Source of the DNA: Ignavibacterium sp.
GTDB taxonomy: Bacteria; Bacteroidota; Ignavibacteria; Ignavibacteriales; Ignavibacteriaceae
Reading direction: 5' to 3'
NCBI GenBank assembly: GCA_032027145.1
Contig: JAVSMP010000001.1
Location: 2,547,116 to 2,611,115, forward strand
Length of the DNA stretch: 64,000 nucleotides
A program made the translations under genes and the position numbers. Numbering within the stretch: the stretch's first letter is position 1; each line of letters begins with the position of its first letter. Positions 2,203 through 20,828 of the stretch are shown here, piece after piece. The notes beneath the pieces were generated by a model. That model worked only from the letters and a program-made list of their open reading frames with translations. It was not told where the DNA came from and did no database searches.

Positions 2203-4308
2203 ATGTCAAAAAATATTACTTCAACACAGGCTAAATCGAAAGATAAAACTTCAATGAAACCAACAAACGGTAAGAATGATTTTATTAAAATCGGTAAAAA
2301 AGATTTTGATAAAGAAAAATTGCTATATGTTTTAAGAACCATGTTAAATGCCCGTAATGTTAATAACAAAGCAATGAATTTATTAAGACAGGGAAAAACT
2401 TTTTTTCATATTTCCAGTTCAGGGCACGAAGCAATTCAATTAGCAATCGGCTTATCTCTTGATCCAAAAAAAGATTGGATGTTTCCATACTACAGAGACC
2501 TGGCTGCAATAATAACTGCAGGAATATCTGTTAAAGAAGTCTTCCTTGGCAGTTTTGCAAAAATTGATGATCCTTCAAGTGGCGGAAGACAAATGCCAAC
2601 ACATTGGGGTGCAAGAAATTTTAATATGCCTTCCCAATCTTCACCAACAGGTACACAATTTTTACAGGCGGTTGGTGCTGCTTTGTCTATTGTAAAGCGG
2701 GGAGAAAAAAACGTTGCTTATGTAAGCAGCGGCGAAGGAACTACTTCACAAGGCGAGTTTCACGAAGCAGTCAATTGGGCAAGCAGGGAAAAACTACCTG
2801 TGCTTTTTGTTATTCAGAATAACAAGTATGCAATTTCTGTTAAAGTTTCAGATCAAAGCGGCGGTAAAGATAATTCTATTGCAGAGATGATGGCTGGATA
2901 TCATAATCTTTTCAGAGCCAGAATTGATGGAACAGAATTTATTACTTCTTATGAGAAAGTTCAGGAGGCAATTGAATATATAAAATCTGGGAAAGGTCCT
3001 GCGTTGATTGAAGCAGATGTTGTCAGATTGGATTCACATTCTTCATCAGACGATCATAGAAAATACAGAGATAAGAAAGAACTTGAAGAAGACTTGAAAC
3101 AATGCCCGATTGAGAAATTTGCTCGACTATTAATTTCAAAAAATATTATTACACAAACTGAATACGAAACTGTAAAACAGAATTCTATTGATGAAATTAA
3201 TGAAGAAGCAGATAAAGCAATAATAGCTGCTGATCCAAAACCGGCAGATGCAGAAACTTTTGTGTTTGATGAAAGCGGATTTAAAGAAACACTTAATTAT
3301 GAATCCTCAGTTCCATCAGGTGATAAGATTGTAATGGTTGATGCAATAAATCATGCGTTGCATGAAGAGATGGAAAAAAATCCTGATATGTACATTTTTG
3401 GTGAAGATATTGAAGATGCAAAAGGCGGAGTATTTACTGCTACAAAAGGATTATCAGCACGATTTACCAGAAAAAGAGTATTTAATTCCCCGCTTGCAGA
3501 AGCAAGTATAATGGGTGTTGCTGTTGGGATGGCTTTGACAGGAATGAAACCTGTTGTTGAAATTCAATTTGGAGATTATATCTGGCCTGCTTTTATGCAA
3601 ATGCGAAATGAGTTGGCATCAATTAGATACAGATCAAATAATGCTTGGTCTGCACCGGTAGTTACAAGGGTTGCTGTTGGCGGATATATTCACGGCGGAT
3701 TGTGCCATTCACAAAGTATCGAAAGTTTTTTTGCACATATTCCTGGAATATTAATTGCTTTTCCGAGCAATGCTGCTGATGCAAAAGGATTATTGAAAAC
3801 TGCCTGCAGAATTAAAGACCCAGTTTTGTTTTGTGAGCATAAAGGTTTGTACAGACAAAGCTACGCTATCACTCCTGAACCTGATGAAAATTATTTGTTA
3901 CCGTTTGGTAAAGCCAAAGTAGTAAAAGAAGGAACAGATGTTACCGTTGTATCCTGGGGAGTTTCTCTTTGGGATTCTATGCTGGCTGCAAAAAAACTTG
4001 AGGATGAAAATTACTCTGTTGAAGTAATAGATTTGAGAACTATTGTTCCGTTGGATGAAGAGACAATTTTTAACTCAGTAAAGAAAACTAATAAAGTTAT
4101 TATCATCCACGAAGACACTTTGTTTGCTGGATTTGGAGCTGAAATTGCTGCAAAGATTGCTGACAATTGTTTCCAATACTTAGATGCTCCTGTAAAACGT
4201 ATTGGTGCAAAGGATTCGCATATCCCTTATTCACCTATACTTGAAAATGAAATTCTCCCGAATCGTGAAGAAATTTTTAACGGAATAAAAAGTTTATTGA
4301 AGTATTAA
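2203..4308 (+). CDS. 2-oxoacid dehydrogenase E1, fused alpha and beta subunits (branched-chain type likely)
   Basis: Thiamine-diphosphate enzyme that decarboxylates a 2-oxoacid and acylates the E2 lipoyl group. The 701 residues combine what are usually two polypeptides: an alpha-like half (about 45-330) and a beta-like half (about 370-701). In the alpha half the ThDP motif starts with GEG near residue 174 and ends with NN about 30 residues later; the usual first motif is GDG. The beta half contains the expected FGEDIEDAKGGVF and RVFNSPLAEASIMG segments. A lysine-rich stretch of about 25 residues leads the protein. AAAGGA precedes the ATG. The fused layout is common for Bacteroidota enzymes annotated as branched-chain 2-oxoacid dehydrogenase, but pyruvate cannot be excluded. 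Confidence 0.9.
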   Translation: MSKNITSTQAKSKDKTSMKPTNGKNDFIKIGKKDFDKEKLLYVLRTMLNARNVNNKAMNLLRQGKTFFHISSSGHEAIQLAIGLSLDPKKDWMFPYYRDLAAIITAGISVKEVFLGSFAKIDDPSSGGRQMPTHWGARNFNMPSQSSPTGTQFLQAVGAALSIVKRGEKNVAYVSSGEGTTSQGEFHEAVNWASREKLPVLFVIQNNKYAISVKVSDQSGGKDNSIAEMMAGYHNLFRARIDGTEFITSYEKVQEAIEYIKSGKGPALIEADVVRLDSHSSSDDHRKYRDKKELEEDLKQCPIEKFARLLISKNIITQTEYETVKQNSIDEINEEADKAIIAADPKPADAETFVFDESGFKETLNYESSVPSGDKIVMVDAINHALHEEMEKNPDMYIFGEDIEDAKGGVFTATKGLSARFTRKRVFNSPLAEASIMGVAVGMALTGMKPVVEIQFGDYIWPAFMQMRNELASIRYRSNNAWSAPVVTRVAVGGYIHGGLCHSQSIESFFAHIPGILIAFPSNAADAKGLLKTACRIKDPVLFCEHKGLYRQSYAITPEPDENYLLPFGKAKVVKEGTDVTVVSWGVSLWDSMLAAKKLEDENYSVEVIDLRTIVPLDEETIFNSVKKTNKVIIIHEDTLFAGFGAEIAAKIADNCFQYLDAPVKRIGAKDSHIPYSPILENEILPNREEIFNGIKSLLKY

Positions 4309-4369
4309 TTTGAATTTTAAATCTTTGATAATATTTACTTAGAATATAAAATCTTATAAGAGGAATTAT

Positions 4370-6034
4370 ATGGACGTAATTATGCCCAAAATGGGTGAGA
4401 GCGTAAATGAAGGAACAATAATCAAATGGCATAAAAAAGTTGGAGAACTGGTAAAACGAGATGAAATTATTTTTGAAATAAGTACTGATAAAGTTGATAC
4501 TGAGATTCCTGCTGCAGAATCAGGTGTGCTGTCTGAAATATTGGTAAAAGAAGGGGAAACGGTTGAAGTGGGAAGTGTAGTTGCAAGAATTCAGACTTCT
4601 GAAGAACCGGAAAAAGATATTCCGTCTCAGGAAGTTAAATTACAAAGTATAACAAAACCAGCTGCTGAATCTGTTGAAAAAAGTGAAGATGTAGTTAAAG
4701 AAATTCCCAAATCGTCAACAGACAGTATGATCGAAATAGCAATGCCAAAAATGGGTGAATCAATTGTTGAGGGAACAATAATTAAATGGCATAAGAAAAC
4801 CGGTGATGCTGTAAAGAAAGATGAAACAATTTTTGAAATAAGTACTGATAAAGTTGATACTGAAATTCCATCTCCGGAAAGCGGAGTATTGGTTGAAATT
4901 TTAGTAGGCGAACAAGAAACTGTTGCAGTTGGAACTGTTGTTGCAAAGTTAGCTGTTGGCTCAGCTGTTAAAACTGCACCAGCAGTGCAGCAGGAAGTTA
5001 TAAAGGAAAAACCTTTTATTGAAAAACCAGTTTCTTTACAGAATAATATTTCTGAAACTGTTAAAAAATCTTCTGAAGAAAAGGGAAGCAGCGCTGACTT
5101 TTATTCACCGCTGGTACTAAGCGTTGCCCAAAAAGAAAATATAAGTTTAGATGAACTTAAATCAATTGATGGAACCGGTTTGGAGGGAAGAGTAACTAAA
5201 AAAGATATTTTAAATTATGTAGAGAAAAGAAAAACTACTAAGGCTCAGCTTCAGTTTAAAAAAGAAATTAAAACTGCTTCACCTGCACCAGAATTTATTC
5301 CTGCATTATCACCGGTTGTGTACAGCGATGCAGATGTTGACAGAATTCCAATGGATAACATACGTCAGCGGATAATGGATCATATGGTGCTCAGCAGGGA
5401 TACTTCTGTTCATGTAACTGGGCTGGTTGAAGTTGATATGACAAGAATTCATAATTTTATAAATTCTAAAAAAGATGAATTATTAAAAAATGAAAATGCT
5501 AAACTGACATACATGGCTTTTATTGCTGATGCTGTTGTTAAATCATTAAAAAAATATCCATTAGTAAATTCTTCTATTGACGGCAATGTAATACTTCAGA
5601 AGAAATTTATTAATCTTGGTATTGCAGTAGCAATCGAACCAACCGGATTAATTGTCCCGAATATTAAAGGAGCAGGCGATAGAAATATAATTGGACTTGC
5701 AAGAGCAATTACAGATTTAGCTAACAGATCCCGTACAAAAAGATTGACTCCGGATGATATTTCAAACGGAACATTTACAATTACAAATTACGGAGTCTTT
5801 GGAACTGTATTCGGAACACCAATTATCAATCAACCTGAAGTTGCAATACTTGGAGTTGGTGCTGTCCAGAAAAAACCTGTTGTTATAGAAGTGAATGATT
5901 CAGATACAATTGCGATAAGACATATTATGGCTTTGACATTGTCCCACGATCATCGGTTAGTTGATGGTATGTTAGGCGGATTGTTCCTGAAGAATGTTAA
6001 AGAAATATTAGAAAATTTTGACGGCAGCTTATAA
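4370..6034 (+). CDS. 2-oxoacid dehydrogenase E2 (dihydrolipoyl acyltransferase) with two lipoyl domains
   Basis: Core acyltransferase that accepts the acyl group from E1 and moves it to CoA. Two lipoyl domains (about residues 1-75 and 120-197) each show the STDKVDTEIP motif, whose lysines (about 41 and 161) should be lipoylated. A proline/alanine/charged linker leads to a peripheral subunit-binding domain (about 243-285), then the catalytic domain. The active-site motif SHDHRLVDG is near residues 525-533. AAGAGG lies ten bases before the ATG. It closes the E3-E1-E2 operon, 61 nt after E1. Together with an enoyl-CoA hydratase elsewhere in the window it fits branched-chain amino acid breakdown, though substrate choice is inferred. 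Confidence 0.93.
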   Translation: MDVIMPKMGESVNEGTIIKWHKKVGELVKRDEIIFEISTDKVDTEIPAAESGVLSEILVKEGETVEVGSVVARIQTSEEPEKDIPSQEVKLQSITKPAAESVEKSEDVVKEIPKSSTDSMIEIAMPKMGESIVEGTIIKWHKKTGDAVKKDETIFEISTDKVDTEIPSPESGVLVEILVGEQETVAVGTVVAKLAVGSAVKTAPAVQQEVIKEKPFIEKPVSLQNNISETVKKSSEEKGSSADFYSPLVLSVAQKENISLDELKSIDGTGLEGRVTKKDILNYVEKRKTTKAQLQFKKEIKTASPAPEFIPALSPVVYSDADVDRIPMDNIRQRIMDHMVLSRDTSVHVTGLVEVDMTRIHNFINSKKDELLKNENAKLTYMAFIADAVVKSLKKYPLVNSSIDGNVILQKKFINLGIAVAIEPTGLIVPNIKGAGDRNIIGLARAITDLANRSRTKRLTPDDISNGTFTITNYGVFGTVFGTPIINQPEVAILGVGAVQKKPVVIEVNDSDTIAIRHIMALTLSHDHRLVDGMLGGLFLKNVKEILENFDGSL

Positions 6035-8672: not shown

Positions 8673-10922
8673 ATGAAAAAAAGATTTAAAAACCTGATTT
8701 CAATGTTTGGGATGCTGACATTGTTGTTGTTTGTTTTTAATACTACAGGATTAAGTCAAAGCTATCCATTGGTAACATTGTATGACATTAATTATATCGC
8801 AGATTCAACTCTATATCCAAATTTTCCTTTTTCACCATTAGCTGGTGATACTGTTAGAGTAAGAGGAGTTGCTATGGTAAGAACTGTAGTTGGTTCTGAT
8901 GAACCTGGTGTAGGTGATAGAAGACCGGTGATTTGGGCTGGTCCAAGATGGTCTTGTTATATTCAGGATAAAGATAATCCTGAATGGAGAGGATTAGTGG
9001 TTTTGCAGGAAGACACATCAAGTGCTAATGCGCAGCAGACTCTTTTTGATTTAGCTGATACCGCAACAGTATATGAATTTACTGGAGTAGTAAAACCATA
9101 TTTTCAAACAACACAGCTGTTGTTGATAACCAGTCCGGTTCCAATTCCAATTGAAGAAATTGAAGTTTTACCTGAGCGACCTGCACCAACTCAAATTACA
9201 ATAGAAGATTTATATACAGGTACATCCGGCAATTACTCTATGAGAAAATATATGAATACTTATGTTGAGTTAGTTGCAGATGCAAATCATAATCTTATTA
9301 CTTCTGACAGAGTTACAGGTACAGGTTCTACATCAGGAAATTTTAAAATCAATGATGGACAGGGCAGATATATTATAGTATATGCCCAATCTACATATTT
9401 TAAGATGAATTCAGACGGTATCAGACCGGATTATGAATCACCTGTAAACGGAACCTATCTATCTTATATACGCGGTATCCTTACAATGAGGTCAAATGCT
9501 AATATAGGCGTTGATTATTGGTTAGTTCCTTTATATCCGGAAGATTTAGGTGATCCTTTAATTTTACCGCCGTCAGTAACTAATGTTACAAGAAATTTGG
9601 TATTAGTTGCACCAAATCAGTCGGTTGATGTAAGCTGTATCGCTAAAGGAGTTCAGGCAGATCTTCAGAGTGTTAAAATATTTTATAGAGTAAACAATGG
9701 TACACTTGATTCAGTAGATATGGCAGCAACATCTGGCGATACTTTGTTTACCGGTACAATACCAGGGGTTTCTGCTGATTCTGCTTTTGTTGATTTTTAT
9801 ATTAGAGCAACTGATCTTAATGGAACTTCAATGACCAATCCATTTAATCCTAATACTTCAAGATATTTTTATTTTGTATTAAACAGACCTTTAACAATAA
9901 GAGAAGTTCAGTATTCTCCGTTTGGCAATGGATTAAGCGGATATTACAATTATCCTGTTACTGTTTCCGGAATTGTAACCGCTGATACTGTTGGCAGATT
10001 TACTAGTACAGGTTTTGGTGCACCAAGCAGCGCAAATAGAATAATAATTCAAGATGGAACCGGAACCTGGAGCGGAATATGGCTGAATGCTGCTAATACA
10101 ACTAAAGATGTTTTTGGATTAAAGATGGGTGACTTTGTTACAGTAACAGGTGTTGTTAAAGAAGACTATGATGTTACACGTCTTGACAATATCTCCGTGC
10201 TGGATATTAACTCAAATAACAATCCGCTGCCGGAGGCAACCGTAGTAACAACTGGAAGCATCGGTACATTACCCTCAAATAATGTAGCAGCAGAACAATG
10301 GGAATCTGTATTAATTAAATTTGAAAATGTTAGTATTACAGATGTTAATGCAGATGGAAATCCGGGACCCGACCCGGGAAGCGGCAGCAGCAGAAATTTT
10401 GGTGAGATTGTTATTAATGACGGTACCGGTAATGTCAGATGTGAATTACAGGATGGCAATCATAAATATCATAATGATTGGAATGCTAACTTAGGTAATA
10501 ATCCTAATTTCGTTTCTGTTGATAGCGGAGCAACATTAACAAGTCTTACAGGATATTTATACTTTTCACACAGTTATTACAAATTAGTACCAAGAATTAC
10601 TGATGATTTTAATAATTACACTGTAGTTAGTGTTGATGATCAGAGTAATTTAATTCCAGGCAGCTTTACAGTTAATCAAAATTATCCTAATCCATTTAAT
10701 CCTTCAACGGTGATTTCATACTCTATTCCGAATGAAGCATTTGTTACGGTTAAAGTATATAATGTGTTAGGTCAGGAAGTAGCAACACTGTTGAATGATA
10801 TTCAGTCTGCCGGTGTTCATAAAATAAATTTCAACGCTTCTAAACTTTCATCAGGAATTTATTTTTATAGCGTAAAAGCTGATAATCATTCAGATGTTAA
10901 GAAAATGATTCTTATGAAATAA
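8673..10922 (+). CDS. T9SS-secreted protein with OB-fold-like domains
   Basis: A 749-residue secreted protein. A signal peptide of about 29 residues is followed by repeated segments of the kind (GDTVRVRGVAMV, GDFVTVTGVVKEDY) seen in OB-fold nucleic-acid-binding modules of bacterial extracellular nucleases. No nuclease active site was recognised in this protein. A central beta-sandwich region (about 300-410) resembles Ig-like domains. The C-terminus is a clear T9SS type A sorting domain: NQNYPNPFNPST, then VYNVLGQEV, then SSGIYFYSV and a terminal KKMILMK. GGAGAG precedes the ATG. It sits 20 nt behind the previous gene and should be translocated and anchored by the T9SS. The substrate is unknown; an accessory binding protein is my inference. 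Confidence 0.72.
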   Translation: MKKRFKNLISMFGMLTLLLFVFNTTGLSQSYPLVTLYDINYIADSTLYPNFPFSPLAGDTVRVRGVAMVRTVVGSDEPGVGDRRPVIWAGPRWSCYIQDKDNPEWRGLVVLQEDTSSANAQQTLFDLADTATVYEFTGVVKPYFQTTQLLLITSPVPIPIEEIEVLPERPAPTQITIEDLYTGTSGNYSMRKYMNTYVELVADANHNLITSDRVTGTGSTSGNFKINDGQGRYIIVYAQSTYFKMNSDGIRPDYESPVNGTYLSYIRGILTMRSNANIGVDYWLVPLYPEDLGDPLILPPSVTNVTRNLVLVAPNQSVDVSCIAKGVQADLQSVKIFYRVNNGTLDSVDMAATSGDTLFTGTIPGVSADSAFVDFYIRATDLNGTSMTNPFNPNTSRYFYFVLNRPLTIREVQYSPFGNGLSGYYNYPVTVSGIVTADTVGRFTSTGFGAPSSANRIIIQDGTGTWSGIWLNAANTTKDVFGLKMGDFVTVTGVVKEDYDVTRLDNISVLDINSNNNPLPEATVVTTGSIGTLPSNNVAAEQWESVLIKFENVSITDVNADGNPGPDPGSGSSRNFGEIVINDGTGNVRCELQDGNHKYHNDWNANLGNNPNFVSVDSGATLTSLTGYLYFSHSYYKLVPRITDDFNNYTVVSVDDQSNLIPGSFTVNQNYPNPFNPSTVISYSIPNEAFVTVKVYNVLGQEVATLLNDIQSAGVHKINFNASKLSSGIYFYSVKADNHSDVKKMILMK

Positions 10923-10975: not shown

Positions 10976-12553
10976 TTGGAAGTAAAACCAGGATTCAAAT
11001 TTAACTATTCAAGAGCTTCTTTTTTACGGCGGGCTTATAATCTAAAAATAGTTTTAGGTTTAAGCCTTGCTGTATTATTAATGTTAAGTTCTTGTTATGA
11101 TGAAATGCCAAATAACCCAATTACAAATAAGGCACCGGTTACCAGAGTTTTTTTATATCCTGATTCGAGTATTTCTAATCAGCCAAGTAAAATTAATCTG
11201 CATTGGTCAGGTGATGATCCGGATGGATTGATAATTGGTTATTATTTCTCTTTTGATGGTGTTAACTGGACTTTTACAACTAAAAGCGATAGTTCGTTTG
11301 AATTAAAAATCGGTGCAGTTGATACTACTTTTATTTTTCTGGTTGCTGCAGTAGATAACTCGGGCAATGAAAAATATGATTCACAGGTTTTTCAGAATAA
11401 TATAAATTTTGGTGCTGAACCATTTGCAGATAAAAATGGAAATGGAATCTGGGATATTGGCGAAGATTATACAGATATCGGTATCATTGATCCTAATCCT
11501 GCAAGAATTGTTTTGCCAATTGTGAATTCTGCACCAGTCATATCCTGGAATGTATTAAGTACTATTCCGGATGTGTCTTATCCTGCAATGACTTTTGGCT
11601 GGGATATTTTCGACCTTGATGGAAATGAAACTATAACCAATATTAAAATTGCACTTAATGATACCACTAATGCTGTTTTATTAAATGGGGGAGTAAGAAA
11701 AATAACAGTCAGAACAAAGGATTTTTCCAATTCCAATCCTTTGATGGATATTTACATCGATGGTAATCCAAATAATATTGCCCCTGTTAAACTGCCTGGT
11801 CTTATCTTCGATTCAAATAACAGATTTTATGTTCAGGCAGAAGACATTTCAGGAGCGAAATCTGAATGGATATCACTTCCTGATACATCAAGAAACTGGC
11901 ATGTAAAAAAGCCTAAAGGTAAAGTTTTAATAGTTGATGACTATATCTTGCTTGATGATGCTGCACAGTTTTACTCAAATATGATGGATAGTCTTGGATT
12001 AACTAACAAATTTGATATTCTTGACCTGAATATAAATATACTGCCATACCTGAATACTACATTTTTAGAAACTATTAAATTATATGATGGAATTATTTGG
12101 TACACAGATAATGATCCTTCATTAGATGTAGCAAATGTAACGGTTCAGAATTATTTAGACGATGGCGGTAAAATATTTTTCTCAATGCAGTTTCCCAATG
12201 ATATTGATCTGCAAATGATTGAAGGATTTTTACCAATTGAATCAGATACAAGTTACTACAAATCTTCTATCGGAATAAATACAAGTATTGCTTCGCACGA
12301 TTCACTTAATTATCCACACCTGCTTACTTACCGGTCATTCTCGCGGGTAAGATCATTTAAGTTAAAAGATGTTGGTGTTAAACCGTTGTATTATTTTCCG
12401 AGTGGTGTATTAAACGGACATATCGGATTTGAAACTAGCAGCAAGAACTTGTTTTTTATTGGTGGTCCATTACAACGACTTGATGGTAAACCGGGCAGTA
12501 TTAAAAAATTATTATTTCAAGTACTATTTCAGGATTTTAATTTAACATTATGA
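10976..12553 (+). CDS. Lipoprotein with Ig/FN3-like domains and a GATase-like C-terminal region
   Basis: The only usable start is TTG at 10976, giving a long basic N-terminus (about 24 residues, including RR) before a hydrophobic stretch and lipobox LSSC near residues 37-40. Residues 50-130 resemble an Ig/FN3-like fold. An EF-hand-like loop (DKNGNGIWDIGE) lies near 155. From about 315 the sequence KGKVLIVDDYILLDDA and a later YLDDGGKIFFSMQ stretch resemble a flavodoxin/glutamine-amidotransferase-like fold of the DUF4350 sort, without a clear catalytic triad. Its stop overlaps the TonB-receptor start by 4 nt (ATGA), so the two are translationally coupled. Probably a surface-exposed or periplasmic partner of the receptor. 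Confidence 0.65.
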   Translation: MEVKPGFKFNYSRASFLRRAYNLKIVLGLSLAVLLMLSSCYDEMPNNPITNKAPVTRVFLYPDSSISNQPSKINLHWSGDDPDGLIIGYYFSFDGVNWTFTTKSDSSFELKIGAVDTTFIFLVAAVDNSGNEKYDSQVFQNNINFGAEPFADKNGNGIWDIGEDYTDIGIIDPNPARIVLPIVNSAPVISWNVLSTIPDVSYPAMTFGWDIFDLDGNETITNIKIALNDTTNAVLLNGGVRKITVRTKDFSNSNPLMDIYIDGNPNNIAPVKLPGLIFDSNNRFYVQAEDISGAKSEWISLPDTSRNWHVKKPKGKVLIVDDYILLDDAAQFYSNMMDSLGLTNKFDILDLNINILPYLNTTFLETIKLYDGIIWYTDNDPSLDVANVTVQNYLDDGGKIFFSMQFPNDIDLQMIEGFLPIESDTSYYKSSIGINTSIASHDSLNYPHLLTYRSFSRVRSFKLKDVGVKPLYYFPSGVLNGHIGFETSSKNLFFIGGPLQRLDGKPGSIKKLLFQVLFQDFNLTL

Positions 12554-15423
12554 AATTTTATTTACTGAAAAAAAGACTGTCATTTAAGTTTTGTGCTTCT
12601 TCTGCAAAAAATATTAAAACATTATTCCTGATTTTAATATTGTTTTCTGTAAGCCAATTGGAGTTGAAGGCACAAACTGCTGCACTCACTGGAAAGATAA
12701 CAGACAAAGAAACCGGAGAGGCTCTGCCAGGTGTAAATATTATTTTAAAAGGTACCTACTATGGCGCCGCTACTGATGTTAATGGTAAATTCAGTATTCT
12801 ATCAATAAATCCCGGTACTTATAATGTAGAAGTTTCTCTGATTGGATATAAGTCAGTTCAGTTTACCGGTTATCAGTTTAGTGCAGGACAAACAAAAAAG
12901 CTTGATGTTGAACTTGAAGAAACCGTTCTTACACTTGGGCAGGATGTTGTAGTTGTTGGTGAAAAACCACTTATGGATGTTGAAGAAACACAAAGTAAAA
13001 GAACTATTTCCAAAGATGAAATCGAGCTTTCTGCAGTTGAAAACATTACAGACCTTGTTAGTATGCAGGCAGGTGTAATAAAATCTGATAATGAAATTCA
13101 TATCAGAGGCGGACGCTCATACGAAAATGCTTTTCTGCTGGATGGTGTTTCTGTTCAGGATCCGCTTGCAGGTACCGGATTTGGGCTGCAGTTAAGTGCT
13201 AATTCAATTGAAGAAGTTGAGATCATTACCGGAGGTTATAACGCTGAGTATGGACAGGCTACTTCGGGTGTTGTGAATGTTAGAACCAGAGAAGGCGGCG
13301 AAAAATATCATGGCGCAATTTCTTACAAAACTGATCATCTTGGAAGTTCACAATCTAATTTTGTTTTTAATACTGATATTCTGGAAGCAAACCTTAACGG
13401 ACCAGAGCCGATTACTTCGTTTTTATTGCCAGCACTTGGATTAAAACTACCAGGCGAATTAACATTCTTTGGAAATTTTTACGGCGGTTTAACTGACGGA
13501 ATTGCTCAGGGTTATATTAAAAAGAAAGCAAATAAAGTTTACTCTTCTATATTCAAAGGCTCTGATTTTGCACCAAGAGCAGAAAACAATTGGTTTTGGA
13601 TGGGTAAATTTACTTATAAATATTCACCGACTTTAAAGTTTAATTATTCAATAAATCAATCTGTAAATATTAATCAGAACTCTCAATCATTACAGTCAAA
13701 TCTTGAATATGTTGAGCCGAGCCCCGGTTACCAATTTACATATCAAAATATTTTAGATAGTGCCAATACATATACTCATAATAATATTTATCAAACCTTC
13801 AGTTTAACACATACACTTAATAATAAAACATTTTATGAGTTGAAGATAAATTACTTCTTTACTCATTTAAGAGCTGATGCAAATGGAAAGAAATGGTATC
13901 AATATAACGAACCGAAGGATATTCCTAATTTTCCTATCCAATACTATAATACAAACAGAGATACACTTGGAATAATACCTGGAGATGGGTTTTGGGATTT
14001 AGGAAATCCATCTACCTGGCATGACCATTATGTTGAAGAGTTTTCTATCAGAGGTGATCTCACAAGCTTTTTTGATGAAAAGAACAAATTTAAAGCAGGC
14101 TTCGATTTTCACTTTCAGGAAATGCAGTCAATTGATATCTATCAGCCTTGGGTCGGTGAACTTGGATTTAACAATGATATTTATAAAGTGCATCCGGCTA
14201 TGGGCTCATTCTATGCTCAGGATAATATTAATTTCAGCGGGATGATACTTAATTTTGGTCTGAGATTAGATTATTGGTTCCCCGGTAAATATGTTGATGA
14301 TGCAATTGATAACCCGGATGTAATTACTATTCCAGATCAGATAAGAGATTCTTATAAAGAAAACTCATTCAGTTGGTTTGGGAACCGAAGATTTAAAGCG
14401 AGATTAAGCCCACGTTTAGGAATATCACATCCTGTTTCTGATAATCAAACATTGTTTTTCTCTTATGGACATTTTAGTAAATGGCCAAAACCACAGTTTG
14501 TCTATGCAAAGTTAAATCCTGTAAGTGCTCAATCGTCTTATCAAAAGTTTGGCAATCCCAATTTAAATCCTGAAACCACCGTTGCTTATGAACTTGGACT
14601 TAAAACCCAGTTTACTAATGATGATGTTCTTACAATTACCGCTTATTACAAAGATATATTTGAATATGTAAGCACACGCTCTGCTAAAATCAATTCTATC
14701 AGATTATCATCACAAAGTTTTACAACTTATGTTAATTCGGATTATGCACGTTCAAGAGGAGTTGAGATCGAATATAAAAAGCGAATTGGAAGATGGTTTA
14801 CCGGTTCGGCAGATTTCACTTATTCGATTGTAACAGGTAAAAGCACAACTCCTGATGAGGGTGTTTTAGTGTTGAAAGGCGATATTAATGAATCAGTAAA
14901 AGAACTTTATATGTCCTGGGACCGGCCAGTTAGCTTTTCTATATTTGCAAATTTTTATGTTGAAAGGGATAATGCACTATTCGGTTTTGGCAATGGAATA
15001 CTTGATGATTACAATATAAGCGTTCGTTCTCAGTTTCGGTCCGGTAAAAGATATACACCGGTAGTCTTTACTGGCTATGATGCACAAACCGGCAGACCTG
15101 AATATGAATCCAGCAGATATGACAGATATAGCAAAATAGGAAATGATTGGTTCTGGATAGATCTTAATTTTGAAAAATATTTTTCAATAGGTCAATTCAA
15201 GTTTTCAATTATTCTGGAAATAAATAATCTTCTGGACACAAAAAACTCAGCTATAATTAATCCTGTAACAGGCAAAGCTTATGAATATGGCGATCCTACT
15301 CCGATTTCGTGGAATGATCCTTTATACCCTGATTTACAGGCACCAATTTCTGCGTATCCTTTTAATCCGGCAAGATATTTAACAAGAAGGAATATCAAGT
15401 TTGGTGTGAGCTTAAAATTTTAA
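12550..15423 (+). CDS. TonB-dependent outer-membrane receptor with carboxypeptidase-regulatory-like domain
   Basis: An outer-membrane active-uptake gate of 957 residues. The signal peptide ends near LKAQ (about residue 42). A carboxypeptidase D regulatory-like domain follows (about 45-125: LTGKITDKETGEALPGVNI and the usual continuation). The plug domain (about 145-240) contains IHIRGGRSYENAFLLDG. The remainder is a beta barrel, ending in an aromatic residue (KFGVSLKF), the usual outer-membrane assembly signal. This is the SusC/CirA-like layout, but no SusD-type lipoprotein accompanies it. It overlaps the upstream lipoprotein by 4 nt, and a PorV-like gene lies 21 nt downstream. The ligand is unknown; the neighbours suggest a product of extracellular phosphodiester cleavage. 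Confidence 0.9.
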   Translation: MKFYLLKKRLSFKFCASSAKNIKTLFLILILFSVSQLELKAQTAALTGKITDKETGEALPGVNIILKGTYYGAATDVNGKFSILSINPGTYNVEVSLIGYKSVQFTGYQFSAGQTKKLDVELEETVLTLGQDVVVVGEKPLMDVEETQSKRTISKDEIELSAVENITDLVSMQAGVIKSDNEIHIRGGRSYENAFLLDGVSVQDPLAGTGFGLQLSANSIEEVEIITGGYNAEYGQATSGVVNVRTREGGEKYHGAISYKTDHLGSSQSNFVFNTDILEANLNGPEPITSFLLPALGLKLPGELTFFGNFYGGLTDGIAQGYIKKKANKVYSSIFKGSDFAPRAENNWFWMGKFTYKYSPTLKFNYSINQSVNINQNSQSLQSNLEYVEPSPGYQFTYQNILDSANTYTHNNIYQTFSLTHTLNNKTFYELKINYFFTHLRADANGKKWYQYNEPKDIPNFPIQYYNTNRDTLGIIPGDGFWDLGNPSTWHDHYVEEFSIRGDLTSFFDEKNKFKAGFDFHFQEMQSIDIYQPWVGELGFNNDIYKVHPAMGSFYAQDNINFSGMILNFGLRLDYWFPGKYVDDAIDNPDVITIPDQIRDSYKENSFSWFGNRRFKARLSPRLGISHPVSDNQTLFFSYGHFSKWPKPQFVYAKLNPVSAQSSYQKFGNPNLNPETTVAYELGLKTQFTNDDVLTITAYYKDIFEYVSTRSAKINSIRLSSQSFTTYVNSDYARSRGVEIEYKKRIGRWFTGSADFTYSIVTGKSTTPDEGVLVLKGDINESVKELYMSWDRPVSFSIFANFYVERDNALFGFGNGILDDYNISVRSQFRSGKRYTPVVFTGYDAQTGRPEYESSRYDRYSKIGNDWFWIDLNFEKYFSIGQFKFSIILEINNLLDTKNSAIINPVTGKAYEYGDPTPISWNDPLYPDLQAPISAYPFNPARYLTRRNIKFGVSLKF

Positions 15424-15444
15424 AAGTAGAATTATAACCAAGTG

Positions 15445-16425
15445 ATGAAAAAAATATTTGCAATAACTATTATCAGTTTTCTATTAACTTCAACTGGATT
15501 TAGTCAGCTTTTTCCTGTACTTGGCGGTCAGCGCGCCGGTATATCAGCAGCTCAGTTTCTTAAAATCGGAGTAGGCGGCAGAGCAACCGCAATGGGTGAT
15601 GCTTTTGTAGCTGTTGCGAATGATGCTTCTTCGCTTTACTGGAACCCCGCCGGTTTAACACAATTTGCTGAGAATCAGATAATGTTCTCACATAACAATT
15701 GGGTAGTTGATATTAATCATGACTTTTTGGGTGCTGTTTATCATCTTGATGAAACTAATGCCTTTGGTGTTTCTTTCGTTGCGCTTACAATGCAGGATAT
15801 GCCGGTAACAACCGAATTTGCTCCGTTTGGAACTGGAGAATATTTTGGATTTAGTGATATCTCTATTGCTGTAACGTATTCAAGAAAAATGACTGACAAA
15901 TTTAGTTTTGGAGGAACAGTAAGATATATTGAAGAAACTCTTGATAAGTTGAAAATGCGTGGCTTTATGATAGACCTTGGCACTTATTATTGGACAGGAC
16001 TTGGATCTTCAAGATTTGCAGTTGCTGTTTCAAATTTTGGCAGCAATTTAGCACCTGATGGCGAAATTATTTTAATTGGAAAAAGGAAGAAATCTGAATG
16101 GCAGGATTTTGCACCGCCAACTATATTCAGAATTGGATTTGCGATTGAACCTTATGAGGATGAAGAACACGCAGTTACAACTTCAATACAACTTAATCAT
16201 CCTAACGATAATAGTGAAAATATAGTTACCGGTGTTGAGTATAACTGGAAAAAAACTTTTTACCTTAGAGCCGGATATAAGTTTAATGTCGATGAACAAA
16301 ACATTTCAATTGGCGCTGGTGTAAATGTTCCTGTTAGTATAGCAAATGTTAGTTTGGATTATGCGTATTCAAATTTTGTAAGATTAGGTTCAGCTCACAG
16401 ATTTTCAATTCTGTTGGGATTGTAG
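15445..16425 (+). CDS. PorV/PorQ-family outer-membrane protein (T9SS-associated)
   Basis: A 326-residue outer-membrane barrel of the FadL-like PorV family. In characterised T9SS systems PorV carries cargo from the translocon to the attachment complex at the cell surface. The family segment GVGGRATAMGDAFVAVAND followed by SSLYWNPAGL is at about residues 35-65. A signal peptide ends near TGFSQ. ATG at 15445 is preferred over an in-frame GTG three bases upstream. The C-terminus (RFSILLGL) fits a barrel strand. Placing a PorV paralogue inside an operon with T9SS cargos and a TonB receptor suggests dedicated export or surface assembly. Whether this is the main PorV of the cell cannot be told from this window. 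Confidence 0.82.
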   Translation: MKKIFAITIISFLLTSTGFSQLFPVLGGQRAGISAAQFLKIGVGGRATAMGDAFVAVANDASSLYWNPAGLTQFAENQIMFSHNNWVVDINHDFLGAVYHLDETNAFGVSFVALTMQDMPVTTEFAPFGTGEYFGFSDISIAVTYSRKMTDKFSFGGTVRYIEETLDKLKMRGFMIDLGTYYWTGLGSSRFAVAVSNFGSNLAPDGEIILIGKRKKSEWQDFAPPTIFRIGFAIEPYEDEEHAVTTSIQLNHPNDNSENIVTGVEYNWKKTFYLRAGYKFNVDEQNISIGAGVNVPVSIANVSLDYAYSNFVRLGSAHRFSILLGL

Positions 16426-16479
16426 AATAATCGAATTAATTATTTTATGGTTGGAAATTTGAAAAACAAAATTTATAAA

Positions 16480-17568
16480 ATGAAGAAATATTTACTTTCA
16501 CTTTTTGGAATTCTCGTTTTTATTAGCTGCTCTGATAAGTTTGATATTACACAATTCGATCAATATACTGGTAATATTAATATCGGAGGAGATACTTTAT
16601 ATATTCAAAATGGAGAACCCTGGGGCGGATTTAATAATCCGCGTGCAATACTGATGGGTAAAGAGCCGTTTATTTATGTTTGCGATACTGATAATAACAG
16701 GATTGTTATGCTTGATGTTGCCGGACAATGGCATGGTTCTTTGTCTATTAAAAAGCCAGTTGCCATTGCTCAGGATTATCATCTTAATCTTTATGTGTGT
16801 GCTGATTTTGATACTGCAAATGTTACCTACAGTGCGCTTTACAAAATAAACTTATTTGCTGCGGGTCATCAAATAGAAAATGCGCCGGTAGTCAGGATAC
16901 TTCCCTTACGTGATTCTGATTTTAACCTTCAAAGAAAATATACTGCAGTTACAGTTTTTTATGACAATTCATTATATGTTGCCAGAACCGGTCCGAATAA
17001 CTCAAGTATTTCCAATCCTGATAATTCAATTTTCAAGATAGCGCCTAAGAAACTTAATGCCGGCGGTGATTTATTAGTGCCAAAAGATAAAGATACACTT
17101 ACGATTGGAAGAGTTCCGTTTATTGATCCGTTAAACCGCGGTTTAATTTCTGCCAACGGAATTAATTCAATGACTTCTTTTAATAAAAGAAATATAGATT
17201 TTATTGCTACATTAGCGGGTGAATCAAGTTTTAAGGCACAATGGTTTTATTTTTATTCTTCGGGAATTGAAGAAAGATATTACAGTAAATTTGATCCTGT
17301 TATTGATGGAGTTGCTTTTGTTAAACCAAACAGATTTCAGGCACCAACCGGCTCTTGTATTGATCCTTCAGGAAATATTTTTATCGCAGATGCCGGCAAA
17401 GACAGTGTGTTAAAGTTTAATTCGAGCGGCGTTGAAATGCATTCCTTTGGAGGATCGGAATTTTTTATTGAACCAGCCGGTGTGGCTTTTTTTGATAAAG
17501 TACTATTTGTACTTGATGCTGGTAAAAATCAGATTCTAAGATTTAAATTATCAACAGATACACAATGA
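16480..17568 (+). CDS. NHL-repeat-like beta-propeller lipoprotein
   Basis: I place the start at the ATG at 16480, not the in-frame ATG at 16447, because it gives a compact lipoprotein signal (MKKYLLSLFGILVFISC). The 362-residue product contains NHL/SMP-30-like propeller segments: residues 60-75 (YVCDTDNNRIVMLD), and near the end PTGSCIDPSGNIFIADAGKD and PAGVAFFDKVLFVLDAGKN. Such propellers usually bind proteins or ligands; no catalytic motif is visible. It follows the PorV-like gene by 54 nt and overlaps the next start by 4 nt (ATGA), so it belongs to the surface operon and is probably made in step with the secreted PLD-like protein. Confidence 0.7.
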   Translation: MKKYLLSLFGILVFISCSDKFDITQFDQYTGNINIGGDTLYIQNGEPWGGFNNPRAILMGKEPFIYVCDTDNNRIVMLDVAGQWHGSLSIKKPVAIAQDYHLNLYVCADFDTANVTYSALYKINLFAAGHQIENAPVVRILPLRDSDFNLQRKYTAVTVFYDNSLYVARTGPNNSSISNPDNSIFKIAPKKLNAGGDLLVPKDKDTLTIGRVPFIDPLNRGLISANGINSMTSFNKRNIDFIATLAGESSFKAQWFYFYSSGIEERYYSKFDPVIDGVAFVKPNRFQAPTGSCIDPSGNIFIADAGKDSVLKFNSSGVEMHSFGGSEFFIEPAGVAFFDKVLFVLDAGKNQILRFKLSTDTQ

Positions 17569-20500
17569 AACTTCTTAATATTTTTTTATTTGCATTTCTG
17601 TTAGTCAGCAGTGCTTTTTCACAGCCGATAATAATTAATGAAATTTATAATTCAAGTACAACTGATGAATGGATTGAATTATTAGTAGTTCAGGATAGTC
17701 TTGATTTGAGGAACTGGGATATAAGAGATTTTAGCAGTACTGGCAATCCACAGGCGCCGCTTAGTTTTTCTTCAAATACTTTATGGAGTAATTTGAGAAA
17801 AGGCACAATTATTATTATTGCCCGCGCCGAAAATACTTTTTCAGAAGATCTTGATCCCAGTGATTATTTACTGATTGTTAAATCCAGTAATGCAATTTAT
17901 TTATCAGGTACTCCGTTTTCATTTGCCGGAACTTCTGATGCGTTGCAGATTAGAAATTCTTCTCAAGTCCATCAGTTTGGTGTATCCTGGGGAACAAATA
18001 ATGCTAATAGTATTCCTAATCCTAAAGTTCATTTTACAAGTGCATCTTCCAGCGGAACTTCAATAATATTTATTCAAGATGATGTATCTAAGTTAACAAA
18101 CACAGCTAACTGGACGATTAATGCAGGTTCGTCAATGGGGTTGGGTAATTCTGCAGCAAATATTGCCTGGATAAATTCATTAAGAACAAAGTTGGAAGGA
18201 TCAGGCACTGCAACACTTTTACCCCAGATTGTTGTTGGTGATTCGATAATTGATTTAAATTTTACCTATAAAAAAAATCCGCTGTACAATATCAATTCTT
18301 TGCGGATTATTATACCTGAAGATTTTTTGTGGTCTCAATCTCAATCTGAAATTAATTATTCAAACTTCACTTCCAACTTGAGTGTCAATGGAGATACAAT
18401 ATTTTTTAGTAATATAAATTTTATCAGTGATACTGTAGCTATAACAGTAAATGAAGTTACTGCACCTCATTATACAGGCAGATATAAGATTAAATTTCAG
18501 TCAGGGGTAAACTTAGTCCTTGCAGATGTTAGTCCGCTGCCGTCACTATTGGTTTATGGTGCTCCGATTCCTATTGCAGATGCTAAAATTAATGATAACA
18601 CAGGAATAGGTTTAAGATTAGGCGATCTTGTTACTTTAAGAGGTATTGTAACTGTCAGTAATCAATTTGGAGGACCAAGTTACATTCAGGATAATACGGG
18701 AGGCATTTCTGTTTTTGGTTCAGCTTTTTCAAATGCTGTGCAAATAGGTGATGAAGTACTGGTTACCGGTACTGTTGCTCAGTTTAACGGACTTAATCAG
18801 ATAGAAAACCCAACACTCCATTCAATCATCAGTTCAGGCAACACTGTTGAACCCCTTATTACTACTCCGGCAGCTTTAAGCGGTGATGGTATAAATGGAG
18901 TTGAAAACTTTGAAGGAAAATTGGTAAGAGTTAACGGAGTTGTTGTATCTGAATTAAATGGAAATTCAGTAAGTAACTGGGCTTATAAAAATTATAAACT
19001 TACAGGCTCAAATCCTTCAGATACTGTACAGATTAGGATTGATAACGATACACAGATTATCGGTCTCGTTGCTCCTGCAGCAAAGTTCGATGTTATTGGA
19101 GTCCTTAGTCAATACAAACCTTCTTTACCTTTTATCGGTGGATATCAAATAATGCCGCGGGTACCTGCAGATATTCTGTCTAACGGACCAATAATAGAAA
19201 AATATCCTGAAGAAGTTAATCTTACAAGCAATTCTATTTCCTTGGAATGGACAACTATAAATCCAGGTACTTCAAGAATACGATATGGCGTAACAACTAA
19301 TTATGAACTTGGCGTGGTTGAACTTGATAATGTATTAAGAACAAATCATTACCTTACTGTTGATGAACTTGAAGCAGCAACAATCTATCATCTTCAGGTC
19401 TTTTCTGTTGCAAATGGAGATACAAGTTTTTCCAGTGATATAGTTTCAAGTACTGCTTCAGCATTTCCAACCACAGGCGAAATCCTGGTCTATTTTAACA
19501 AATCAATTAATACTTCTGTATCATCCGGAATTAATGCAAATGGAAATGCCAATTTTCAAAATATTCTTATTGATAGAATTAATAATGCAAAACGATCTAT
19601 TGATGCCGCACTTTACAGCTTAAGCGGAACAGTGGGTGCAAATATTGCAGCTGCTCTTCTAAGTGCTAAAAACCGAGGGGTTAAAATCCGAGTAATCGGT
19701 GAGTATGATAACAGAACTACTGCACCATGGAATACTTTAATCAATAACGGAATACCTTATATAAATGATAGATTCGGCAATAACGACGGAAGCGGAATTC
19801 ATCATAATAAGTTTTTCATCATAGATTATCGCGGCGGTATGCCTGATAGTGTTTGGGTTATCACCGGAAGTTGGAATCCAACTGACCCAGGAACAAATGA
19901 TGACAGACAAAATCTTATACTTATTCAGGATGTTGCTCTAGCCGGTGCTTATACATTGGAATTTAATGAGGAGTGGGGTAGTGATACTGATTCTCCAAAT
20001 GCTGCAAATTCAAGATTTGGACCAAGAAAACTTAACAACACACCGCATAATTTTGTAATTGCCGGTAATAAAGTTCAATTATATTTTAGCCCGAGTGACG
20101 GAACAACTGCAAAGATAGGAAGAACACTTGGCAAAGCTGAGAAATCCATAAATGTGGCATTACTTTCGTTTACAAGACGTGATCTTGCAGATACTATTAT
20201 TACAGTAAAAAACAAAGGTTCTAAAACAAGGGTGATATTAAGTAATAATACCGATACAGGCAGTCAATTTTTTTATATGCAATCTGCTGGAGTAGATATA
20301 AGATTAAAAGGATTTACTACTGGTTTATTGCATCATAAATATGCTGTGGTTGATGCCGAACCATTTGGATATAATGCTTCAGTTATTACCGGATCTCATA
20401 ACTGGTCATCTTCTGCAGAAAATGTTAATGATGAAAACACATTGATTATTCAAGATGCGCAAACTGCTAATTTTTATTTGCAGGAATTTGCCGCAAGATA

Positions 20501-20828
20501 TTATGAAGCAGGCGGACAGGATTCTTTAGTAACAAGTATTGAGGAAATTACTGAGACAATTCCTGTTCAATTTAATTTGTACCAGAACTATCCGAACCCG
20601 TTTAATCCTGTTACAAATATTAGATTTGACGTGCCGTTTACTCAAAAAATCGAACTCTCCGTTTTCGATCTGCTTGGACAAAAAATTAAAGAGTTATATA
20701 ACGATGTTATAAATGCAGGTTCATATACGGTTGAGTTTAATGCAGGTGATCTTGCAAGCGGAGTTTATTTTTATAAAATTCAGTCAGAATCATTTACTGA
20801 TGCTAAGAAGCTTTTATTACTGAAGTAG
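17565..20828 (+). CDS. T9SS-secreted phospholipase D/nuclease-like protein (lamin-tail, OB-fold, FN3, two HKD domains)
   Basis: A 1087-residue secreted multidomain protein. After a signal peptide (ends SSAFSQ) comes a lamin-tail-like domain (about 20-150: IINEIYNSSTTDEWIELLV). An OB-fold-like domain (about 340-430: LGDLVTLRGIVTVSNQ) and an FN3-like domain (about 545-640) follow. Two phospholipase D catalytic modules come next. The first has HNKFFIID near residue 745 with GSWN downstream; the second has HHKYAVVD near 923 with GSHN. Each supplies the His-Lys-Asp signature, so both half-sites look intact. The last 85 residues are a T9SS sorting domain (NYPNPFNPVTNI, ending AKKLLLLK). PLD-family enzymes cut phosphodiester bonds in lipids or nucleic acids. 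Lamin-tail and OB-fold modules are familiar in bacterial extracellular nucleases, which tilts my inference toward DNA/RNA. Last gene of the operon. Confidence 0.85.
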   Translation: MKLLNIFLFAFLLVSSAFSQPIIINEIYNSSTTDEWIELLVVQDSLDLRNWDIRDFSSTGNPQAPLSFSSNTLWSNLRKGTIIIIARAENTFSEDLDPSDYLLIVKSSNAIYLSGTPFSFAGTSDALQIRNSSQVHQFGVSWGTNNANSIPNPKVHFTSASSSGTSIIFIQDDVSKLTNTANWTINAGSSMGLGNSAANIAWINSLRTKLEGSGTATLLPQIVVGDSIIDLNFTYKKNPLYNINSLRIIIPEDFLWSQSQSEINYSNFTSNLSVNGDTIFFSNINFISDTVAITVNEVTAPHYTGRYKIKFQSGVNLVLADVSPLPSLLVYGAPIPIADAKINDNTGIGLRLGDLVTLRGIVTVSNQFGGPSYIQDNTGGISVFGSAFSNAVQIGDEVLVTGTVAQFNGLNQIENPTLHSIISSGNTVEPLITTPAALSGDGINGVENFEGKLVRVNGVVVSELNGNSVSNWAYKNYKLTGSNPSDTVQIRIDNDTQIIGLVAPAAKFDVIGVLSQYKPSLPFIGGYQIMPRVPADILSNGPIIEKYPEEVNLTSNSISLEWTTINPGTSRIRYGVTTNYELGVVELDNVLRTNHYLTVDELEAATIYHLQVFSVANGDTSFSSDIVSSTASAFPTTGEILVYFNKSINTSVSSGINANGNANFQNILIDRINNAKRSIDAALYSLSGTVGANIAAALLSAKNRGVKIRVIGEYDNRTTAPWNTLINNGIPYINDRFGNNDGSGIHHNKFFIIDYRGGMPDSVWVITGSWNPTDPGTNDDRQNLILIQDVALAGAYTLEFNEEWGSDTDSPNAANSRFGPRKLNNTPHNFVIAGNKVQLYFSPSDGTTAKIGRTLGKAEKSINVALLSFTRRDLADTIITVKNKGSKTRVILSNNTDTGSQFFYMQSAGVDIRLKGFTTGLLHHKYAVVDAEPFGYNASVITGSHNWSSSAENVNDENTLIIQDAQTANFYLQEFAARYYEAGGQDSLVTSIEEITETIPVQFNLYQNYPNPFNPVTNIRFDVPFTQKIELSVFDLLGQKIKELYNDVINAGSYTVEFNAGDLASGVYFYKIQSESFTDAKKLLLLK

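Follow-up and report, generated by a model that had tools for sequence, protein, structure and literature searches.

A T9SS cargo protein of Ignavibacterium sp. carrying a tandem PLD unit is a candidate extracellular nuclease

The locus described here raises the question of what substrate, if any, is attacked by a large protein with an export tag that carries two phospholipase D (PLD) domains and is encoded directly behind a set of outer-membrane genes. It lies within a window of 64,000 nucleotides (the whole stretch of DNA that was analyzed) of the genome of the sediment-type bacterium Ignavibacterium sp.; this genome comprises 3,665,746 bases in a single contig. On balance, the product of the PLD gene (the window protein) is reasonably likely to be a nuclease candidate of the PLD superfamily that is exported via the T9SS and is either displayed on the cell surface or secreted. 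The features on which this reading draws are listed in Table 1.

Table 1. Features of the window protein and of the genes upstream of it, with positions in the window
Feature	Position	Strand	Basis or remarks
Core locus gene 1, 706 aa	6532..8652	+	No Pfam match; weak T9SS-type C-terminus
Core locus gene 2, 749-aa T9SS cargo with OB fold	8673..10922	+	PF01336 2.9e-7, Por_Secre_tail 1.9e-11; conserved
Core locus gene 3, 525 aa	10976..12553	+	No Pfam match; lipoprotein-like start
Core locus gene 4, TonB-dependent receptor	12550..15423	+	PF00593, PF07715, CarbopepD_reg_2
Core locus gene 5, PorV/PorQ-family outer-membrane barrel	15442..16425	+	NF033709 8.8e-69, above cut-off
Core locus gene 6, NHL-repeat lipoprotein-like protein	16447..17568	+	PF01436 6.4e-8
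Tandem-PLD T9SS cargo protein	17565..20828	+	1087 aa, ATG start
Probable signal peptide, aa 1-19, Q at +1	17565..17621	+	Sequence; model helix 2-14; putative cleavage site
LTD-type N-terminal module, aa ~20-144	17622..17996	+	Via relative L045; shared with two Endonuclease I proteins
DUF5689/OB-type module, aa 352-537	18618..19175	+	Pfam PF18942 1.2e-6; ExeM/NucH model overlap
Fibronectin type III module, aa 552-625	19218..19439	+	Pfam fn3 9.2e-5, slightly below cut-off
PLDc_2 domain 1	19566..19976	+	PF13091 2.2e-18
HKD motif 1, H747 to N771 (HNKx4D, x13, GSWN)	19803..19877	+	Sequence, family alignment
PLDc_2 domain 2	20121..20495	+	PF13091 5.3e-20
HKD motif 2, H923 to N946 (HHKx4D, x12, GSHN)	20331..20402	+	Sequence, family alignment
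T9SS type A C-terminal sorting domain (CTD), aa 1009-1083	20589..20813	+	PF18962 6e-11, TIGR04183 7.4e-11

Modular architecture and export tag

A preliminary description, made from the sequence, had presented the reading frame as a T9SS cargo in which lamin-tail, OB-fold, FN3 and two PLD modules are joined in one chain. Profile searches bore out most of this architecture: the sorting domain exceeded the cut-offs of both models (42.9 bits versus 27 for PF18962 and 41.9 versus 23 for TIGR04183), PLDc_2 was recovered in two stretches (jointly 1.6e-39), and the FN3 module and the slightly above-cut-off DUF5689 module were located between the N-terminus and the PLD domains. The OB-fold label draws on the DUF5689 match and on an overlap of aa 375 to 461 (2.1e-7) with the OB segment of NF033681, the model for ExeM/NucH. 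The score against that model, 30.2 bits versus a cut-off of 300, derives from the OB part only, and no EEP domain was found in the Pfam scan of the protein; the NucT models NF010490 to NF010493 gave at best 54.7 bits, the cut-off being 297.

The lamin-tail assignment survived in part. Reading a lamin tail directly from the window protein is ruled out by Pfam, which returned no lamin-tail domain (LTD) match in aa 1 to 345 even at an E value of 10, nor was there one in two close relatives; the label is owed to a single relative (L045), whose N-terminus is 61% identical and matches LTD (PF00932) at 1e-7, with 32.7 bits lying slightly below the cut-off of 34.3. A small profile-profile comparison with three clear LTDs yielded nothing (probability, 1.7%). 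Across the family, LTD was matched in 15 of 28 scanned longer members at an E value of 0.01.

T9SS-type C-terminal tags are abundant in the source genome (at least 150 matches), and the T9SS translocon component that was looked for, SprA, is encoded there (SprA_N above cut-off, 6.2e-50); the CTD of the window protein would direct export and surface anchoring. Elsewhere in the window, a 2037-aa reading frame at 38195-44308 has a T9SS tag match close to its C-terminus. DUF5689 matched the source genome solely at the window protein, and PLDc_2 matched one other frame, of 705 aa, twice and weakly.

Predicted fold of the tandem PLD unit

The two PLD halves align with each other (36 of 133 residues identical; E value, 4e-11). 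The full-length model of the window protein reached a mean pLDDT of 90.7 and a pTM of 0.55, which implies that the individual domains are confidently predicted and their mutual arrangement is not, while a model of the tandem unit alone (aa 634 to 992) was confident as a single-chain, bilobal structure (pLDDT, 96.8; pTM, 0.94). This model aligns across both halves (model residues 1 to 352 of 359, the histidines of the two HKD motifs falling at model positions 114 and 290) with PLD3, PLD4, SpPLD and the lipid PLDs, each of which is a single-chain pseudo-dimer, and the tandem unit is thus predicted to adopt a bilobal pseudo-dimer fold that spans both domains. Because both halves align with the single-chain enzymes PLD3 and PLD4, the two HKD sites very probably come together in a single active site within one chain, as the preliminary description had anticipated, and the superposition on PLD3 suggests that both histidines may lie within bonding reach of one phosphate; in SpPLD the two histidines are 6.7 A apart (PMC8004604). 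Both motifs of PLD3 form one central active site according to the available text of PMC10783504, which describes PLD-type nucleases as typically dimers with one HKD each, lipid PLDs as holding both in one chain, and PLD3 and PLD4 by name as exceptions, being nucleases with both HKD-type sites in one chain.

In the VIA-align ranking of the tandem model, PLD3 was placed first (Z score, 34.9; 2.8 A; 322 residues aligned) and PLD4 scored 34.0, the PLD3/PLD4 matches overall covering Z scores of 33.4 to 34.9, 2.7 to 2.9 A and 312 to 323 of the 359 residues. These were followed by SpPLD (32.9), vaccinia F13 (31.1) and the phosphatidylserine synthases (28 to 29.4), with polyphosphate kinase at about 26, PLD2 at 27.5, the Streptomyces PLDs at about 25 and the classical lipid PLDs in general at 25 to 27.5. 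The Foldseek E-value order differs, with SpPLD at the top and PLD3/PLD4 next. When a profile of the family (74 sequences) was compared with PDB sequences, the best matches were mouse Zucchini (1.3e-24), Nuc (4.9e-22), NucT (1.9e-12) and PLD3 (2.8e-11), and each PLD half alone matched Nuc/Zucchini best. The contrast between true PLD enzymes and dimeric Nuc-type nucleases, which the preliminary description had drawn, needs one refinement: the closest solved fold belongs to a third kind, the single-chain nucleases with tandem HKD sites, and the individual halves resemble Nuc and Zucchini most.

Kinship of fold alone does not show function, and the same fold would also suit a secreted phospholipase D that hydrolyzes or transphosphatidylates the phospholipids of lysed or neighboring cells. 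Two HKDs per chain are typical of lipid PLDs in the account given by PMC10783504, the scores of SpPLD and the phosphatidylserine synthases are substantial, and SpPLD is itself extracellular (PMC8004604, as far as its text is available). Such a role is nevertheless unlikely, since the classical lipid PLDs, true fold matches in themselves, lie 7 to 10 Z units below PLD3, and since the authors of the SpPLD study themselves raise nucleic acid cutting by SpPLD as a question in the accessible part of that paper (PMC8004604); the motif and module data given below point the same way.

Conservation of the HKD sites across the family

The preliminary description had noted two apparently intact HKD sites (HNK and HHK, with aspartate five residues after the lysine), and these proved to be a family trait. 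In the window protein, site 1 reads H747-N-K749-x4-D754 followed by G768-S-W-N771, and site 2 reads H923-H-K925-x4-D930 followed by G943-S-H-N946. Conservation was assessed in an alignment of 74 sequences, namely, the window protein and 73 relatives drawn from the best 80 loci, of which seven (L047, L078, L087, L088, L089, L094 and L098) were dropped as cut, partial or containing unknown bases, L098 being retained for one other comparison. The H, K and N residues of both sites are invariant (74/74), as expected if catalysis is retained; the aspartate of the first site is kept in all 74 sequences and that of the second in 72, N replacing it in the other two, so that 72 of the 74 retain both HKDs in full. 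Such invariance argues against a mainly structural surface adhesin whose PLD unit merely binds nucleic acid or lipid, a role for which the occurrence of LTD, OB and fn3 modules in T9SS proteins without recognized catalytic domains might speak but which we regard as highly improbable.

GS follows both the first and the second HKD in 63 of the 74 sequences, the other 11 having an SS-GS pair. The GG of classical lipid PLDs is hence absent after the first HKD throughout the alignment, which weighs against a lipid substrate; in the excerpted text of the SpPLD paper, nucleases are characterized by GS-GS and classical PLDs by GG (PMC8004604). The spacing from the aspartate to GS is 11 to 15 residues at site 1 and 11 to 14 at site 2 across the 74 sequences. 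In the textbook signature HxKx4Dx6GSxN this gap is 6 residues (PMC5714352, from the text available), and the stretches at aa 754-768 and 930-943 are about twice as long, a difference that holds family-wide. A further asymmetry concerns the Glu after GSxN, which is invariant in the second half (E957), while its first-half counterpart, position 782, is Q or N in 70 of the 74 sequences and E in 4; judging from the alignment, this suggests that the two half-sites may have different roles.

A Pfam scan covered 61 family members (L044, L050, L051, L053, L062, L065, L067, L068, L073, L077, L084, L091, L105 and L108 lying outside it) and found PLDc_2 in all 61, the T9SS tag in 59, DUF5689 in 38 and LTD in 16; in many members the protein is shorter, at about 780 aa, and starts at the OB module. 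The best 80 loci carry the labels Ignavibacteria, Bacteroidota, Balneolales, Saprospirales, Eisenbacteria, Fermentibacteria, KSB1, Calditrichota, Marinimicrobia and, in one case, Armatimonadetes, labels which may be wrong as the records are mostly metagenome bins. Among the named records at these loci, "Ignavibacteriota bacterium isolate IGN3" comes nearest to the PLD part (95%). In a survey of 296 genomes sampled from the phylum, with at most two candidates scored per genome, 86 gave a match to the window protein without its tag at an E value of 1e-20; 12 of these match outside the PLD part only, which by our reading of the table leaves 74 of 296 with the PLD part. A phage origin was considered and rejected, four phage records giving weak matches, all below 60% identity, as was membership of a defense system, for which the matches were confined to DrmC/DpdK, arose through the common PLD fold and reached at best 1.1e-9.

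Accessory modules in other exported proteins

The N-terminal module of the window protein recurs in two Endonuclease I proteins of the class, at 39% identity in L242 (genome G120) and 36% in L241 (G093), both with T9SS tag matches, and this sharing of accessory modules with Endonuclease I proteins again disfavors a lipid substrate. A 554-aa Endonuclease I frame in the source genome likewise has a T9SS tag match, and the organism therefore probably exports a further nuclease, to judge from its sequence. The modules are not confined to nucleases: in the source genome, LTD is also found alongside CotH, and in proteins that lack a recognized catalytic domain. Two T9SS proteins of that genome (L206 and L208) combine a CotH kinase domain with lamin-tail and sorting domains, and a 936-aa T9SS protein of another genome (L249 in G152) contains three copies of the OB module of the window protein and no recognized catalytic domain. 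Full activity of ExeM depends on all of its parts, namely, an LTD, a stretch holding two putative OB folds, and an EEP domain, going by the available text of PMC6085458; literature on Izemoplasmatales is cited beside ExeM (PMC8289736, likewise available in part).

Genomic context of the PLD gene

A 4-base overlap joins the ATG of the PLD gene to the stop codon of the NHL gene. The order of the six core genes (g6532, OB cargo, g10976, TonB, PorV-like and NHL) is found in most of the 20 loci fetched across the class, some lacking one gene or being cut. The TonB gene was detected in 93 of 149 class genomes (E value, 1e-100) and the NHL gene in 91 of 149 (E value, 1e-10); both thus occur in more than 60% of the sampled class genomes, mostly without an adjoining PLD gene. 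Compared with PDB sequences, the TonB receptor gave two short, weak matches only, with no hint of a substrate, and a scan for promoters and terminators returned counts close to the shuffled expectation. No link is apparent to the E1/E2 dehydrogenase genes (2203-6034) or to the Fe-S gene (22214).

The slot after the NHL gene was surveyed in 88 of the 91 NHL-bearing genomes (the window, the 20 loci and a further 67), the match in the other three (G136, G360 and G196) being so near the edge of a contig that little or no downstream sequence remains. A tandem PLD gene follows NHL in 29 of the 88 (1 + 7 + 21, respectively), directly in 18 and with a single intervening gene of about 600 aa in 11. As these 29 loci are spread over five families of the class, shared ancestry accounts for much of the co-occurrence. 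In three genomes (G051, G116 and G124; loci L122, L123 and L124) the NHL gene is followed instead by a T9SS-tagged EEP protein; no match to the window protein at an E value of 1e-20 was reported in G051 or G116, and that in G124 was confined to the region N-terminal to the PLD domains. Neither a PLD nor an EEP gene was seen in the slot in 56 of the 88, a figure that includes three loci too short to tell (L139, L160 and L171) and, for the 67 loci, depends on BLAST with the L122 to L124 proteins, by which remote EEP or Endonuclease I proteins could escape. The core locus and the PLD gene consequently do not form a strict unit.

The exchange is seen most closely within one genus, to which G062 and G051 both belong: between the NHL gene and a gene, homologous between the loci, whose sequence reads at its start like an ATP synthase beta subunit, G062 carries a tandem PLD (L141) and G051 a T9SS EEP protein (L122), and G180 (L126) has nothing between these flanks. 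The EEP protein of G124 precedes a triple-LTD protein, after which comes an Endonuclease I protein with fn3, LTD, DUF5689 and CTD. All three EEP loci belong to one family (f2) and may therefore represent a single event. EEP enzymes include phosphatases and sphingomyelinases, so the swap of PLD for EEP in the slot is by itself no proof of a nucleic acid substrate.

The position of the PLD gene in an outer-membrane locus could also suit a phosphodiesterase for some other envelope polymer, be it teichoic acid-like, LPS phosphate, polyphosphate or a phosphorylated exopolymer, given that PLD-fold enzymes are chemically versatile and that polyphosphate kinase is among the fold matches. No gene of the locus points to such a polymer, however, and the accessory modules are shared with nucleases, for which reasons we hold this improbable. 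Going beyond the nuclease reading, it is tempting to regard the whole locus as an outer-membrane system for nucleic acid capture and uptake, in which a fixed core (secreted OB-fold binder, TonB receptor, PorV-like barrel and NHL lipoprotein) serves an exchangeable nuclease slot that is occupied by a single-chain bacterial PLD3-like nuclease, by EEP with or without Endonuclease I, or is empty; this extension is speculative and rather doubtful.

Proposed function

Since the catalytic end of the window protein resembles the human lysosomal DNA-cutting enzymes PLD3 and PLD4, it probably acts in nucleic acid breakdown outside the cell; the step from fold to substrate is one that we infer from the model. 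In favor of a nuclease are the top rank of PLD3/PLD4 in the fold comparison, the nuclease matches of the profile, the prevalence of GS-GS, the modules common to Endonuclease I proteins, the EEP swap in the slot and the ExeM-like layout. Counting against it are SpPLD, which its authors class as a phospholipase D and which trails PLD3 by just 2 Z units, the fact that LTD is not nuclease-specific, the OB modules of L249 without a recognized catalytic domain, and scores far below the cut-offs of the NucT and ExeM/NucH models. In the proposed mechanism, the two HKD sites would lie opposite one another and form a single active site that needs no metal, in which one histidine would form a phospho-histidine with the nucleic acid phosphate and the other would act as acid/base. 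The LTD and OB modules may hold or position the nucleic acid, and the products would be taken up, possibly via the neighboring TonB and PorV-like proteins.

Comparison with known systems

The protein appears to represent a new combination, in which a tandem PLD catalytic unit is accompanied by an ExeM-like set of LTD and OB modules and exported via the T9SS, probably as a secreted nuclease; no published account of such an architecture was found in the open-licence PMC literature. ExeM/NucH is likewise exported and joins an LTD and an OB-type region to a phosphodiesterase domain (PMC6085458, in the text available), but that domain is of the EEP type, whereas the window protein has a tandem PLD and a T9SS tag. 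The Endonuclease I T9SS proteins of the class share with it the N-terminal module (L241 and L242) or LTD, DUF5689 and fn3 (L124), together with the CTD, and differ in having Endonuclease I, not PLD, as the catalytic domain. Nuc, NucT and Zucchini/PLD6, which include the best sequence match of each half and also have GS after the HKD, are homodimers with one HKD per chain, unlike the window protein with both in one chain; NucT is described in the accessible text of PMC5714352 as a salvage nuclease of H. pylori located outside the cytoplasm. SpPLD of Serratia plymuthica (7E0M) resembles the window protein as an extracellular single-chain, two-HKD fold with nuclease-like loops and a GS motif, yet has a GS-GT pair and is described as a phospholipase, and the available portion of that paper mentions no LTD, OB or T9SS modules (PMC8004604).

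The best structural match is provided by PLD3 and PLD4, lysosomal 5'-3' exonucleases which likewise have two HKD-type sites per chain, a bilobal fold and a location outside the cytoplasm. They differ in sequence (about 18% identity), in the second site, which is HKE in PLD3 (PMC10783504, from the part available), in the spacing from aspartate to GS (6 residues versus 11 to 15 and 11 to 14 in the family), and in being membrane anchored, while the window protein has LTD, OB and fn3 modules and a T9SS tag instead. If the window protein is a nuclease, it would be open to ordinary expression and assay, and its position after a conserved TonB/PorV-type locus would offer a handle on the use of extracellular DNA by little-cultivated bacteria; it would then constitute a bacterial secreted counterpart of the single-chain PLD3/PLD4 type, found across many Ignavibacteria, Bacteroidota and neighboring phyla.
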